Shown piece after piece: positions 10,985 through 25,030 of a DNA stretch of 25,387 nt (its first letter is position 1; every line of letters begins with the position of its first letter). The notes under the pieces are model-generated. The model saw only the letters and a program-made list of their open reading frames with translations, searched no databases and was not told the DNA's origin. Position numbers and translations under genes: made by a program. Origin of the DNA: a virus; the IMG/VR virus record IMGVR_UViG_3300046008_000790, positions 1-25,387 of that record, one strand, 5' to 3'.

Positions 10985-10997
10985 TTATTTGCCCTAG

Positions 10998-11222
10998 TTG
11001 TGATAGTTTTGTGATAGTTTTGTGATAGTTTTTGTGAGTGTTTTTTCTTTATAAATCATTCTCTTGTGATAGTTGTGATAGTTATTATTAAAAAACAGGT
11101 TTGTTTGTAATTTGAAATGAACTTAAAAAAAACTGTCACAACTATCACAACTATCACAAGTCCTTAATTCATAAAGAATTATTTTTGTGATAGTTGTGTT
11201 TTAACTGTGACAACTGTCACAA
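10998..11222. repeat. Iteron-like array of TTGTGATAGTT repeats
   Basis: This 247-base gap holds no gene but many copies of an 11-base unit. Three perfect tandem TTGTGATAGTT copies fill 10998-11030. Two more, overlapping by two bases, lie at 11064-11083, and one at 11185-11195. Inverted copies are at 11140-11150 and 11149-11159, with one-base variants (AACTGTCACAA) at 11131-11141 and 11212-11222. The 21 bases 11063-11083 are the exact reverse complement of 11140-11160. A 7-bp palindrome TGTGACA/TGTCACA spans 11206-11221. An origin with initiator-binding iterons, a terminase site or a regulatory hairpin are all possible. The position between the replicative helicase and terS favours the first two. 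Confidence 0.85.
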
Positions 11223-11231
11223 TTCATTGAT

Positions 11232-12566
11232 TTATAAGTGATACTTGCGTTTTTTATCATCGACAAGAATGTCGAATTGATTTAAAAACTCTTGTTCTAG
11301 CGTAGTGCTTACGGTATCAGCACCAACAAAATAGGCAGTTACTTTTTTAGTTGTAAACTTTATTGAACAGTAACTTTTGATGATTTTCTTCTCTGAGGCT
11401 ATTGCACGTCCGAACGTTGTCGAGCTACTTGGGAAGCGTTCGCCGTTTTCAGCACACCAGCATTGATAAGCCCAATATAATGACGATGCACCGACTGCTT
11501 GAACTGGGAAACCAGCTTCGCCAGCTAACCACTGCTTAATGAAATTCTGCTCAGTCGTTAAATTCGCGTCGATAATATCTTTTTTCGCGTCAGTCAAAAG
11601 TGGTTTGGTGTGTTCGTTGAAATCACCGCAATCATAATTTAACAAATAACCTAACAAATCCGATTCAACAATACTAGATTTCAATTCCGTGAAATAATCC
11701 ACATCCATGTCATCGGTTTTTTGGGTTTTGATAACCATGAATCGACGGTCGTCTTTATTGGTATCAATCGGCACGTCTTCATTGGATAGAAAAACAAAAT
11801 TAGCAAAATTCGCTTCAATGCGCTCAGGCATCGACTTTTGATTGATAGAAACAAAAGGCTCGGTGATTAACTGTTGTAGTTTTCCTTTGATATGACGACG
11901 TTCACGACGACTAATCACTTCGTTTGCAACAATGAATAATTTGCATGATGCCCAACCGTTGAACTGCGATTCGATTTGAGATTGACCAATTTGAATGCCG
12001 TAAATTCCGAAAATGTGTTGAATGGCATCAACAAGAATGTTTTTACCTGTTCCTTCGTCACCGTGAATCACAACCGACGAGCGCATTTTAGAACCAAGGT
12101 TTTGAAGTTGATACGCAAACCAACAAGTAATCCATTTCGCCGCCGCATTATCGTTTCCGCAAAGTTTCAACAAATGTAAATGCCATGCTTTCCAGCCACT
12201 GCCATTTGTTGCACGCATTGGCAAGCCTTTGAACATATTGATTTGACCTTTCTTACAGCCTTGCGGTGCGAATACCAAATCGTCCATTGGTACGATTTCA
12301 CGACCTGGGTTTGATTTCCAAATCTTGTACGACACTGGGAACGATAGTTCCATGTTGCCGCATTTAATCATTGTGTTGGTTGATTTGTCCCACGCGCAAT
12401 TTGTGCCGTGAATCATAACGAAATGTTCTTGTAGATAAGACGGGTCGTCGGATAGTTGCGTTGCACGCGCTTTAACTTCTGAATCGAATTTTTCTTGTAG
12501 TGCGGATAGTTTTTTGGGTGCTGTCATCACGATTTCCATGATTGCACCTTTTTTGGTGTGTTGCAT
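11232..12566 (-). CDS. Replicative helicase/primase-helicase (DUF5906, SF3-like)
   Basis: 444 residues. The ATPase core has a Walker A GDEGTGKN (169-176; the last residue is Asn where Ser/Thr is usual), a Walker B-like LFIVANE (210-216) and the sensor/arginine segment FVFLSNEDVPIDTNKDDRRF (258-276), matching phage and satellite DUF5906 primase-helicase proteins. The N-terminal 100 residues are not a complete primase domain that I recognise. It probably unwinds DNA at the phage origin, perhaps at the repeat array directly downstream. Two starts are possible: ATG 12566 with GGGGAC upstream, and ATG 12539 with AAGGTG. Its leader carries a promoter, a C4-like RNA and an overlapping small frame. 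Confidence 0.85.
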   Translation of the reverse strand: MQHTKKGAIMEIVMTAPKKLSALQEKFDSEVKARATQLSDDPSYLQEHFVMIHGTNCAWDKSTNTMIKCGNMELSFPVSYKIWKSNPGREIVPMDDLVFAPQGCKKGQINMFKGLPMRATNGSGWKAWHLHLLKLCGNDNAAAKWITCWFAYQLQNLGSKMRSSVVIHGDEGTGKNILVDAIQHIFGIYGIQIGQSQIESQFNGWASCKLFIVANEVISRRERRHIKGKLQQLITEPFVSINQKSMPERIEANFANFVFLSNEDVPIDTNKDDRRFMVIKTQKTDDMDVDYFTELKSSIVESDLLGYLLNYDCGDFNEHTKPLLTDAKKDIIDANLTTEQNFIKQWLAGEAGFPVQAVGASSLYWAYQCWCAENGERFPSSSTTFGRAIASEKKIIKSYCSIKFTTKKVTAYFVGADTVSTTLEQEFLNQFDILVDDKKRKYHL

Positions 12567-16124: not shown

Positions 16125-16154
16125 TTTTTAACCCCTTTTTTATTTGCTGACCAT

Positions 16155-16183
16155 AATATAGCAAACGCTTAACTTTTAAGCAA
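16155..16183 (-). promoter_or_regulatory. Leftward early promoter (PL-like)
   Basis: On the minus strand TTGCTT (16183-16178), 17 bases and TATATT (16160-16155) form a promoter for the Cro-like gene and the leftward operon. The two boxes fall inside operator-like palindromes at 16176-16191 and 16157-16172, so repressor binding would exclude polymerase. Confidence 0.68.
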
Positions 16184-16233
16184 CAGCTATCGCGTGTATA
16201 TTTGTATAGCAAATGCTATAGAATAATGCTATA
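16157..16233. promoter_or_regulatory. Immunity operator cluster 1
   Basis: Three related palindromes of 7-2-7 form are seen: TATAGCAAACGCTTAA (16157-16172), TTAAGCAACAGCTATC (16176-16191) and the perfect TATAGCAAATGCTATA (16205-16220). A half site TGCTATA follows at 16227-16233, and a further GCTAT lies at the repressor start codon. The spacing covers both the leftward promoter and the region where a repressor promoter must lie. The same motif recurs at the rightward promoter. Confidence 0.75.
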
Positions 16234-16259
16234 AGAAACTAAAAACGGAGCGTTATGCT

Positions 16260-16676
16260 ATGAAAACAATTACTGAAATCAGATTAGAAAATTTCAAAAA
16301 AATAGCCGCTACTTATAAAACACAAAGAGAATTTTCTGACGTTCTTGGAGAATCAACTGGATATATCAACCAGTTGCTACATGGAAAACGTGGTATTGGC
16401 GAGAAAGTTGCGCGTAAATTTGAAGAAAAATTAAGAATGTCGCATCTTTCGCTTGATGTTGATAGCATTCAAACATCGTTAAACGATAGCGAATTAAAAA
16501 GCCCTGTTGAGGCGATTGAAGTTACACCAGAGGAGTTGGGATATATCAATTTATTGCGGGATTTAGCATCCAATCAAAGGAAGGTAATCATTGATGCCGC
16601 AAAGGAATTAAAAAGAAGCAATCAAAAGGTGTTCTTGGAATTAAGCAATAGATATAACAGCCATGCTCACGCATAA
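16260..16676 (+). CDS. CI-like repressor, HTH without protease domain
   Basis: 138 residues. An N-terminal XRE-type HTH is visible at about 15-60 (FKKIAATYKTQREFSDVLGE, then STGYINQLLHGKRGIGEKVARKFEEKL). The C-terminal half is helical (EELGYINLLRDLASNQRKVI) and probably mediates dimerisation. No LexA/S24 Ser-Lys protease domain is present, so RecA-driven self-cleavage is not expected. Induction would need an antirepressor, and a Rha-type candidate lies at the end of the rightward operon. The gene is divergent from the Cro-like gene and precedes the secreted-protein gene, with which it likely forms the lysogenic transcript. The ribosome site is GGAG, 8 bases before ATG 16260. Confidence 0.85.
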   Translation: MKTITEIRLENFKKIAATYKTQREFSDVLGESTGYINQLLHGKRGIGEKVARKFEEKLRMSHLSLDVDSIQTSLNDSELKSPVEAIEVTPEELGYINLLRDLASNQRKVIIDAAKELKRSNQKVFLELSNRYNSHAHA

Positions 16677-17150: not shown

Positions 17151-17193
17151 TTAAGCAAATGCTGTTGACAGGTATTTAAGCAAATGCTATATT
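17151..17193 (+). promoter_or_regulatory. Rightward early promoter with operator cluster 2
   Basis: TTGACA (17165-17170), exactly 17 bases, then TATATT (17188-17193) gives a near-consensus sigma-70 promoter. Two operator copies overlap it: TTAAGCAAATGCTGTT (17151-17166, touching -35) and TTAAGCAAATGCTATA (17176-17191, over spacer and -10), 25 bases apart. A 9-bp inverted repeat TTTGCTTAA/TTAAGCAAA (17138-17159) extends the first. This should be a strong promoter that is tightly repressed in lysogens, driving the recombination and antirepressor operon. Confidence 0.85.
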
Positions 17194-17253
17194 TTAACCA
17201 TCGAAACAACAACGGGTTTCGGTGCATCACAAAGCTCTTTAACAATCGAATCA

Positions 17254-17435
17254 CTCAAAAGCGGAACAAGGCATAACTAGCCAAACGTGACTTTTGAGAG
17301 CTTACAAGTTGTAAGCGGTGTAGCCAATCAAAAGATGCTGGTGTCGGCATTAGAAGTAGACACAAAACGAATGGAGATTCGTATGTATTTGGATGTTTAG
17401 GAAGATTGGCTACAACCGCTTGGAATTTTCAAGCG
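17254..17435 (+). ncRNA. Highly structured leader RNA of rightward operon
   Basis: The roughly 290-base gap between the rightward promoter and the first gene contains many perfect stems. CTCAAAAG (17254-17261) pairs with CTTTTGAG (17291-17298). GCTTACA/TGTAAGC forms a hairpin at 17300-17316. TGTAGCCAATC (17319-17329) pairs with GATTGGCTACA (17404-17414), extendable by AAGCGG/CCGCTT past one bulged A. Inside that stem are GTGTC/GACAC (17341-17363) and ACGAAT-GGAG-ATTCGT (17367-17382). CGCTTG/CAAGCG closes 17417-17435. The extension of the long stem competes with both flanking hairpins, so alternative folds exist. An amber-interrupted frame (GTG 17287, TAG 17398, stop at 17457) also crosses the region. 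An antitermination (put-like) or switch role is inference. Confidence 0.6.
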
Positions 17436-17440
17436 AACAC

Positions 17441-17464
17441 AAAAAAGCCCGCTGTGAACGGGCT
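17441..17464 (-). terminator. Hairpin with minus-strand T tract
   Basis: AGCCCG/CGGGCT (17446-17451 with 17459-17464), 7-base loop. On the minus strand it is followed by six T, making a good terminator in that direction. On the plus strand the following bases are AATTAT, so termination of the rightward transcript here would be weak. Confidence 0.6.
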
Positions 17465-17493
17465 AATTATAAAAAACAAAAACGAGGTGAATT

Positions 17494-17661
17494 ATGCCAC
17501 AACAACTAATAGATGCAATCGTGTTTTGTTCTAACGCGATGCACGGTTACAACACGCCAAAATCAAAACAAGCAACACTAAAACGCATTGCACCACAGCT
17601 AGGTATGACAACAGGTTTGCACTTAGCGGCGATTCAAAAAATTAAAAAAGGGAGTAACTAA
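17494..17661 (+). CDS. Small early protein, unknown
   Basis: 55 residues starting MPQQLIDAIVFCSNAMHGYN and ending in a basic helix (LAAIQKIKKGSN). A strong GAGGTG ribosome site lies 5 bases before ATG 17494, which is the main support for the gene. It is the first gene after the structured leader and abuts the acidic protein gene (1 base gap). Slightly basic, no membrane segment. As first product of a strong early promoter, a host-takeover or regulatory role is plausible; I do not recognise a family. Confidence 0.7.
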   Translation: MPQQLIDAIVFCSNAMHGYNTPKSKQATLKRIAPQLGMTTGLHLAAIQKIKKGSN

Positions 17662-17963: not shown

Positions 17964-17990
17964 GCCCCGAACACACGGGGCATCTTTTTT
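17964..17990 (+). terminator. Intrinsic terminator inside the rightward operon
   Basis: GCCCCG (17964-17969) pairs with CGGGGC (17976-17981) with a 6-base loop, then ATC and six T (17985-17990). It separates the first two early genes from the recombination genes, so full operon expression needs readthrough or antitermination. Confidence 0.82.
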
Positions 17991-24063: not shown

Positions 24064-24077
24064 CAAATCTTTTTAGT

Positions 24078-24127
24078 GGCGGTATTCTGTTTGCGAGTCC
24101 TGAAAGGCTCGAAAAGCGGAATCCGCC
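24078..24127 (+). ncRNA. Hairpin RNA upstream of antirepressor leader
   Basis: GGCGG (24078-24082) and ATTC (24084-24087) pair with GAAT and CCGCC (24119-24127), one T bulged. Inside, CGAG-CCT pairs with AGG-CTCG around a GAA loop (24094-24111), again with one bulged T. The long bulged stem-loop lies just after the HNH stop and about 22 bases before the leader peptide start. No T tract follows immediately (TTTTTT comes at 24144), so a terminator role is doubtful. Confidence 0.5.
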
Positions 24128-24149
24128 CCGTTAGATAGTGGAATTTTTT

Positions 24150-24266
24150 ATGCCCAAAATAATTTTTGGGTTAATGGTTTGCCTTACCAGTAATGCTAGG
24201 CGCAACTACTTTTCGTTGTTTTCAGACTCCATTAACCCTTTAATTATTTTGGAGATAAAAACATGA
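24150..24266 (+). CDS. 38-residue leader peptide coupled to Rha gene
   Basis: The frame begins ATG 24150 (MPKIIFGLMVCLTSNARRNY) and ends with TGA that overlaps the antirepressor ATG as ATGA. It runs through the whole long hairpin 24154-24252. Ribosomes translating it would open that hairpin, whose 3' arm holds part of the GGAG site for the antirepressor. Shine-Dalgarno for the peptide itself is weak (GTGGA). Either a regulatory leader peptide or a fortuitous frame; the exact ATGA junction favours the former. Confidence 0.42.
   Translation: MPKIIFGLMVCLTSNARRNYFSLFSDSINPLIILEIKT
24154..24252 (+). promoter_or_regulatory. Long leader hairpin sequestering the Rha ribosome site
   Basis: CCAAAATAATT (24154-24164) pairs with AATTATTTTGG (24242-24252), and GGGTTAATGG (24168-24177) with CCATTAACCC (24229-24238), separated by a symmetric TTT/TTT internal loop: 21 perfect pairs. 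The 51-base apex has two small stems, GCCT/AGGC (24181-24200) and CAAC/GTTG (24203-24219), giving a branched tip. The last two paired G residues are the first two bases of the GGAG Shine-Dalgarno. This predicts translational control of the antirepressor. Confidence 0.68.
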
Positions 24267-25030
24267 ACCAAGCAGTATCCGCAGTAGAATTATCATCATT
24301 CGTCTTTGCATCAAACGACGACATCAAAACCACCTCGCTTTTAGTTGCTGAAAAATTCGGAAAACGTCACGGCGATATATTACGCACAATCGACAACATT
24401 CAAACGCAAGTATCTGATTTTTTCTATAAACGCAATTTTGCGCTGATAGAAAATGAAACAGTTTTGGCGGCTTCTGGTGGTGTTAGAAAAGACCGTGCAT
24501 TTGAAATGACTAAAAACGGCTTTATGTTCTTGGTTATGGGATTCACAGGAAAACAAGCGGCACAAATCAAAGAGGCTTACATCAATGCTTTTGATACAAT
24601 GCACGCCAAATTATTTCCAAAAACACCCTACGGCTTGAAAATCGGCGTGGATAAAATCAGTCCGTCACAATGTCAAGATATTCGCCACGCAGTCGCTAAA
24701 ATCGCAGGTAAGGATAAGGTTGTTTATCAAACAACGTACTGGAAATTACACGAACACTTCAACGTTAATTCCTACAAAGAATTAAACGCGAGTGATTTTG
24801 ATGAAGCCATGATGATTTTGGGACAACCAGAACAACAAAAAATGGTGTTGATTTCAGAAAGCGAGCTTGAAGCGTTACGCAACAAACCCGCCGAGCTGAC
24901 TTATGAAAAGTTTATTGAAGTTTTGGACAAATCAGAATCGTCGGGTTACAAATTAGTAAAGAAATCGGAACTTCAAGCGGCGGCATGGATGTTCACGCAA
25001 GGACTTAAAAATCTTGGCGTTTTAGATTAA
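24263..25030 (+). CDS. rha: Rha-family antirepressor/regulator
   Basis: 255 residues. N-terminal pRha domain at about 10-112: SLLVAEKFGKRHGDILRTID, FALIENETVLAASGGVRKDR and FEMTKNGFMFLVMGFTGKQA with KEAYINAFDTM ('GKRH-x-x-(I/V)LR-x-I ... RKDRAFEMTK-x-GF-x-FLVMGFTG' is diagnostic). The C-terminal region (115-190; ISPSQCQDIRHAVAKIAG, YWKLHEHFNVNSYKELNASD) resembles the P22AR/ORF6C antirepressor C-terminal domains. It probably inactivates the CI-like repressor, which has no protease domain, or controls lytic genes. Translation from ATG 24263 is likely controlled by the leader hairpin and peptide. The stop codon overlaps the convergent gene's stop. Confidence 0.88.
   Translation: MNQAVSAVELSSFVFASNDDIKTTSLLVAEKFGKRHGDILRTIDNIQTQVSDFFYKRNFALIENETVLAASGGVRKDRAFEMTKNGFMFLVMGFTGKQAAQIKEAYINAFDTMHAKLFPKTPYGLKIGVDKISPSQCQDIRHAVAKIAGKDKVVYQTTYWKLHEHFNVNSYKELNASDFDEAMMILGQPEQQKMVLISESELEALRNKPAELTYEKFIEVLDKSESSGYKLVKKSELQAAAWMFTQGLKNLGVLD

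Follow-up and report, generated by a model that had tools for sequence, protein, structure and literature searches.

The window, the whole 25,387-nt stretch of viral DNA analyzed here (IMG/VR record IMGVR_UViG_3300046008_000790), contains 2 divergent promoter regions with similar operator words. The rightward early promoter sits among TTAAGCAAATGCTATA-type repeated operator words, and similar words recur in the divergent leftward promoter region at approximately 16125-16262, which drives a YdaS/Cro-like gene and a helicase, with a primase also on the leftward side. Rightward RNA is predicted to start near 17200, and the approximately 290 nt between this promoter and the first gene at 17494 contain no convincing gene, as the initial annotation had proposed when it described a stretch of this length without a clear gene after a near-consensus promoter. 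Beyond the leader, the operon runs from small genes through an intrinsic terminator, correctly placed within the operon by that annotation, to a YqaJ exonuclease. The divergent operator-controlled promoters together with a YqaJ operon fit a lambda-like layout, with an operon order that fits the pL operon. The 55-aa product of the first early gene had no family match and no arginine-rich motif in our profile and motif scan, and a search of the window found no tRNA or tmRNA genes. The features of the leader and its surroundings are as follows, with perfect stems being Watson-Crick stems of at least 6 bp.

17165..17193, plus strand: early promoter TTGACA-17-TATATT, matching the consensus at 11/12 positions, with TG preceding the -10
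17202..17221, plus strand: 5' hairpin of the leader with a 6-bp perfect core (17202-17207/17216-17221), pair probability 0.99
17234..17246, plus strand: boxA GCTCTTTAACAAT, 0 mismatches to GYTCTTTAANA, starting at about +35
17254..17298, plus strand: hairpin in the boxB position, 7 nt after boxA, an 8-bp perfect stem (17254-17261/17291-17298) with inner pairs; not a lambda-type boxB
17300..17316, plus strand: small hairpin GCUUAC-AAGUU-GUAAGC (7-bp perfect stem 17300-17306/17310-17316) that forms first in prefix folds and competes with the long stem at its base
17313..17421, plus strand: long irregular stem of 7 + 11 bp with a 1-nt bulge (11-bp perfect stem 17319-17329/17404-17414, extended by 7-bp perfect stem 17313-17319/17415-17421), closing a two-hairpin multibranch loop
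17367-17372/17377-17382, plus strand: 6-bp perfect stem
17417..17435, plus strand: 3' hairpin, a second competitor for the long-stem base (6-bp perfect stem 17417-17422/17430-17435)
17446..17464, minus strand: leftward intrinsic terminator, a hairpin (6-bp perfect stem 17446-17451/17459-17464) followed by a minus-strand T-run; weak or none rightward
17494..17661, plus strand: first early gene, 55 aa, with Shine-Dalgarno GAGGTG at 17484-17489
17964..17990, plus strand: intrinsic terminator within the early operon, 3' of the second gene

The leader folds with an energy of about -88 to -89.8 kcal/mol (z -5.9 against dinucleotide shuffles, 0/200 shuffles as stable), while 296-nt tiles across the whole window average z -0.3 with a standard deviation of 1.1. 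Its most stable part is 17296-17440 (z -7.1), and the long-stem domain, 17311-17425, reaches z -6.9. The perfect stems noted in the initial annotation are there, as sets of 11, 8, 7, and 6 bp, and stems of at least 6 bp number 14 in the leader vs. a shuffle average of 9.2, with an 11-bp stem appearing in 1 of 100 shuffles. Single short perfect stems are thus unremarkable, and it is the leader as a whole that is remarkable. Competition between the extension of the long stem and the hairpins on either side, also foreseen in that annotation, is present in the folding model, with partition-function values of 0.83 for the long stem in its extended form and 0.17 for each of the 2 flanking hairpins. 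In prefix folds, 17254-17298 and 17300-17316 stand as 2 hairpins 1 nt apart, and the second is displaced in the full-length fold; the model suggests that 17300-17316 would form first and be displaced once 17415-17421 has been made. It also pairs 17227-17237 with the Shine-Dalgarno region at 17484-17490, with a probability of roughly 0.7. Two alternative 7-bp pairings are near zero at equilibrium in the model, one (17232-17238/17297-17303) that would mask boxA and another (17278-17284/17406-17412) in which a second TAGCCAA copy replaces the long stem. Because no homologue of the folded domain was found, the structure is drawn from thermodynamics alone. A terminator with a competing antiterminator, the layout of attenuators and riboswitches, was not found in the leader; the hairpin at 17446-17464 has its U-run on the minus strand and none on the plus strand, and Rfam returned no riboswitch.

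Strong folding also occurs elsewhere in the window. On the plus strand, 24064-24262 (z -6.2) lies directly before a Rha/antirepressor-like gene (24263-25030) whose Shine-Dalgarno sequence, TTTTGGAG, falls within a long predicted stem, suggesting that translation of the antirepressor may be controlled by this fold. Next to the primase gene (11232-12566), the region 10985-11231 (z -6.5) combines an array of CTATCACAA-type repeats, likely replication-origin iterons, with a very long inverted repeat.

In bacterial ribosomal RNA genes, boxA is the host signal that keeps RNA polymerase running; boxA alone, as in rRNA operons, is known mainly for acting against Rho and not against strong intrinsic terminators. 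The boxA of the leader was absent from the initial annotation and is the most informative element that we found. It matches the gamma-proteobacterial consensus GYTCTTTAANA (PMC5725501) perfectly. Both strands of the window together contain a single match to this consensus, at 17234-17246, and 20 of 20000 shuffled leaders (approximately 0.1%) contain one. In the folding model, the element is mostly unpaired and is flanked by 2 hairpins.

The partners of boxA in the lambda system were not recognized at this locus. A lambda-type boxB, that is, a hairpin of approximately 15 nt, 8-13 nt beyond boxA and capped by a purine-rich pentaloop, was not found in the leader. The hairpin at its place is 45 nt long with a different loop, and the 17-nt hairpin at 17300-17316, with AAGUU as its pentaloop, begins 53 nt beyond boxA. 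The small early genes gave no PHROGs or Pfam match to an N-like protein and contain no N-terminal arginine-rich motif, and the only arginine-rich stretches are in unlikely frames within other genes or far from the leader. N proteins diverge fast. The same family search had a positive control in contig L194, where a promoter, a boxA, and a folded leader are followed by a first gene of the N family (phrog_271, E 5.6e-10).

Homologues of the leader were sought at several levels. By blastn against phages, plasmids, and 369 gamma-proteobacterial genomes, the leader DNA matched nothing except short pieces that resemble terminators or are the size of boxA. R1, a covariance model of the folded core only, matched just the window among 53 leader contigs and nothing in the 369 genomes, and the Rfam search proposed with the initial annotation returned nothing above chance on the leader strand, either at the gathering threshold or at E up to 10. 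No relatives were found through the repressor or an 88-aa gene; the closest relatives through the helicase (L095-L098) are without the repressor-leader module, and relatives through YqaJ have other leaders. Two of these YqaJ relatives, L001 (206-290) and L002 (4774-4862), share a long stem directly before their first early genes, in which AUAAGACUGUCUAUC pairs with GGUAGGCAGUCUUAU (hairpin z about -5.5). In L002, this conserved hairpin is preceded by a terminator and by GCTCTTTGTACA, a boxA-like word. In L004 and L084, from Arsenophonus, boxA occurs together with a folded RNA.

The combination of promoter, boxA, and folded leader recurs in other viral contigs. We scanned IMG/VR with two exact boxA 14-mers and a reversed 14-mer as control, and removed leaders with tRNA genes before comparing the two. 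Among the matches listed, 33/205 boxA sites vs. 2/90 controls lay near a strong promoter, 67/205 vs. 4/90 were non-coding in the sense of falling outside long reading frames, and 28/205 vs. 2/90 were followed by RNA with z below -3. With looser cut-offs (promoter 9/12, no 100-aa frame, z below -2), all 3 conditions held at 16/205 boxA sites and 0/90 controls among the matches listed; because some of these contigs are related to one another, p-values are nominal. On the same measure, the window has z -7.2, more extreme than most boxA sites scanned. This recurrence in unrelated viral contigs suggests that the promoter-boxA-folded-leader layout is common and unannotated. In L149 and L137, boxA lies directly 5' of tRNA arrays and behind strong promoters, which makes boxA antitermination of phage tRNA operons possible.

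A covarying family (model R2) was found in early leaders of beta-proteobacterial prophages and consists of boxA, a stem-loop P1/P1b, a stem P2, and an H-type pseudoknot. Its members are L050 2623-2723, L052 1964-2064, L079 3201-3299, L085 1941-2039, L090 3517-3615, L281 6936-7033, L288 9130-9228, L298 8019-8116, and L478-L491. In the alignment, which was fitted to P1, P1b, and P2 and not to the pseudoknot, 94.3% of cells pair vs. 72.0% in shuffles (26 matches, 23 distinct rows), and all 18 of 18 pairs change on both sides, while slid controls collapse. The model is found in 12/251 genomes of one beta-proteobacterial family; the first downstream genes vary between phages, with none N-like by eye, and the members scanned had no Rfam match at the locus. 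R2 is a candidate for a new RNA family of phage early leaders, and it shows that large structured RNAs joined directly to boxA are conserved in phages. The window leader was rejected as a member, as it matches the model only over boxA (10.9 bits). The leaders of a set of 37 contigs (L223-L335) contain boxA and share blocks such as GACCGGCGATC and CCGGTTAGGTCACTCCCGGC; this set is possibly a distant cousin of the boxA-pseudoknot family, with L255 matching R2 at E 0.001. On the minus strand of L051 (1421-1495), a match to the Rfam family Burkholderiales-2 (RF02917) lies opposite a boxA leader and starts just after boxA, and the published orientation of RF02917 may deserve a second look.

The leader of the window is probably a nut-type, Nus-factor-dependent antitermination leader of an operator-controlled early promoter, in the position that lambda pL-N occupies. 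On the nascent RNA, boxA would be bound by NusB-NusE, which would load a Nus complex onto RNA polymerase, and this complex could protect the untranslated leader from Rho. Because boxA alone mainly opposes Rho, readthrough at 17964 needs more than boxA, and with help from structured RNA or an unrecognized phage protein, the terminator at 17964-17990 would be read through and the recombination genes expressed. Since neither a lambda-like boxB nor an N-like gene was found, the leader may act through a phage protein, through RNA alone, or through host Nus factors alone. Like the nutL-N stem of lambda, the long stem probably serves as an RNase III substrate and as a spacer through which translation of the first gene is coupled to the leader.

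The initial annotation had also read the leader as an antiterminator, a reading of which antitermination in a nut-like position is supported, by way of the boxA it did not see, and of which kinship with the HK022 put RNAs is not supported. If the leader were a put-like, protein-free antiterminator, the hairpins at 17254-17298 and 17300-17316 or the long-stem domain would bind RNA polymerase directly, and boxA would be accessory or serve against Rho only. The very stable fold, the failure to find an N-like gene, and the side-by-side placement of these 2 hairpins in prefix folds would all suit such an element, but the long stem displaces the second hairpin in the full-length fold, put has been described without boxA (PMC9378689), and the blastn matches listed for the leader, at E up to 10, include no HK022 record. 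We therefore consider this unlikely.

Distinctly unlikely is a role in Nus-mediated repression or timing, in which NusB-NusE at boxA would control translation of the first gene as in suhB, perhaps in competition with the pairing between the boxA-proximal region and the Shine-Dalgarno sequence. That suhB is repressed through boxA in E. coli (PMC5725501) provides a precedent, and the predicted 17227-17237/17484-17490 pairing would provide a means; however, this long-range pairing is short, split, and predicted only, 250 nt separate boxA from the start codon, and the terminator within the operon argues for a need for readthrough. We give still less credence, and only a slight chance, to the leader serving RNA processing or stability alone, through an RNase III stem or 5' protection, the match to boxA being coincidental. 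The long stem is of the kind cut by RNase III, and L001 and L002 share a different, conserved long stem in this position, but the boxA consensus has a chance of only about 0.001 of appearing in the leader, and its spacing from the promoter agrees with that of lambda and P22. Finally, the amber-interrupted small protein gene (GTG 17287 to 17457) offered as an alternative in the initial annotation has a codon score of 0.10 per codon, above off-frame stretches (-0.05, sd 0.10) but below the real genes of the phage (0.24, sd 0.08). This score, the stop within the frame, and the lack of a Shine-Dalgarno sequence disfavor it weakly; as it also has no homologue and the RNA there is extremely structured, we rate it highly improbable.

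Protein-based antitermination, as with lambda N, and protein-free antitermination, as with put, are usually treated as separate solutions. It is conceivable, if doubtful, that many temperate phages carry long boxA leaders without an N-like protein, in which an adjacent folded RNA joins host Nus factors to complete the antitermination complex. If so, this mechanism of RNA and host Nus factors would lie between rRNA antitermination and put, and the window leader would be one solitary architecture of this kind, with the beta-proteobacterial pseudoknot family another. Whether phages use RNA alone to borrow the host rRNA antitermination complex can be tested directly on such a leader, which combines a large folded domain with a perfect boxA of the rRNA type and has no recognizable boxB or N.

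Several known systems share parts of this arrangement. Like HK022 put, the leader is a structured RNA just 3' of an early phage promoter and possibly acts without a phage protein, whereas put is approximately 70 nt, consists of a pair of stem-loops, and is presented in the structure paper without mention of boxA (PMC9378689). The suhB leader likewise places boxA in a messenger leader, but there the gene is chromosomal and boxA is repressive (PMC5725501). Nus-dependent, non-lambdoid mEp immI coliphages have boxA nut sites in early operons outside the classical lambdoids but, unlike the window, possess a lambda-like boxB and the N-like protein Gp17 (PMC11893012). With rRNA operon leaders, the window shares a perfect GYTCTTTAANA boxA followed by untranslated structured RNA (PMC5725501), although here it is a phage messenger leader with no rRNA downstream. 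The pL leaders of lambda and P22 have z-scores of -3.2 and -2.2, respectively, when folded with the same program, and are shorter, at 222 and 226 nt vs. 294 nt in the window. They differ from the window, which has no 15-nt boxB with a GNRA-type loop and no recognizable N gene, and whose boxA is stronger and of the rRNA type. The leader is thus nut-like by anatomy without the marks of membership in the N/boxB system. Its boxA starts at about +35, compared with +35 in lambda and +37 in P22, and as in both of these phages, an operator-controlled promoter is followed by boxA, a hairpin, a long irregular stem, and a first gene, which is N in lambda and P22, with recombination genes farther downstream in the operon as in the pL operon of lambda.
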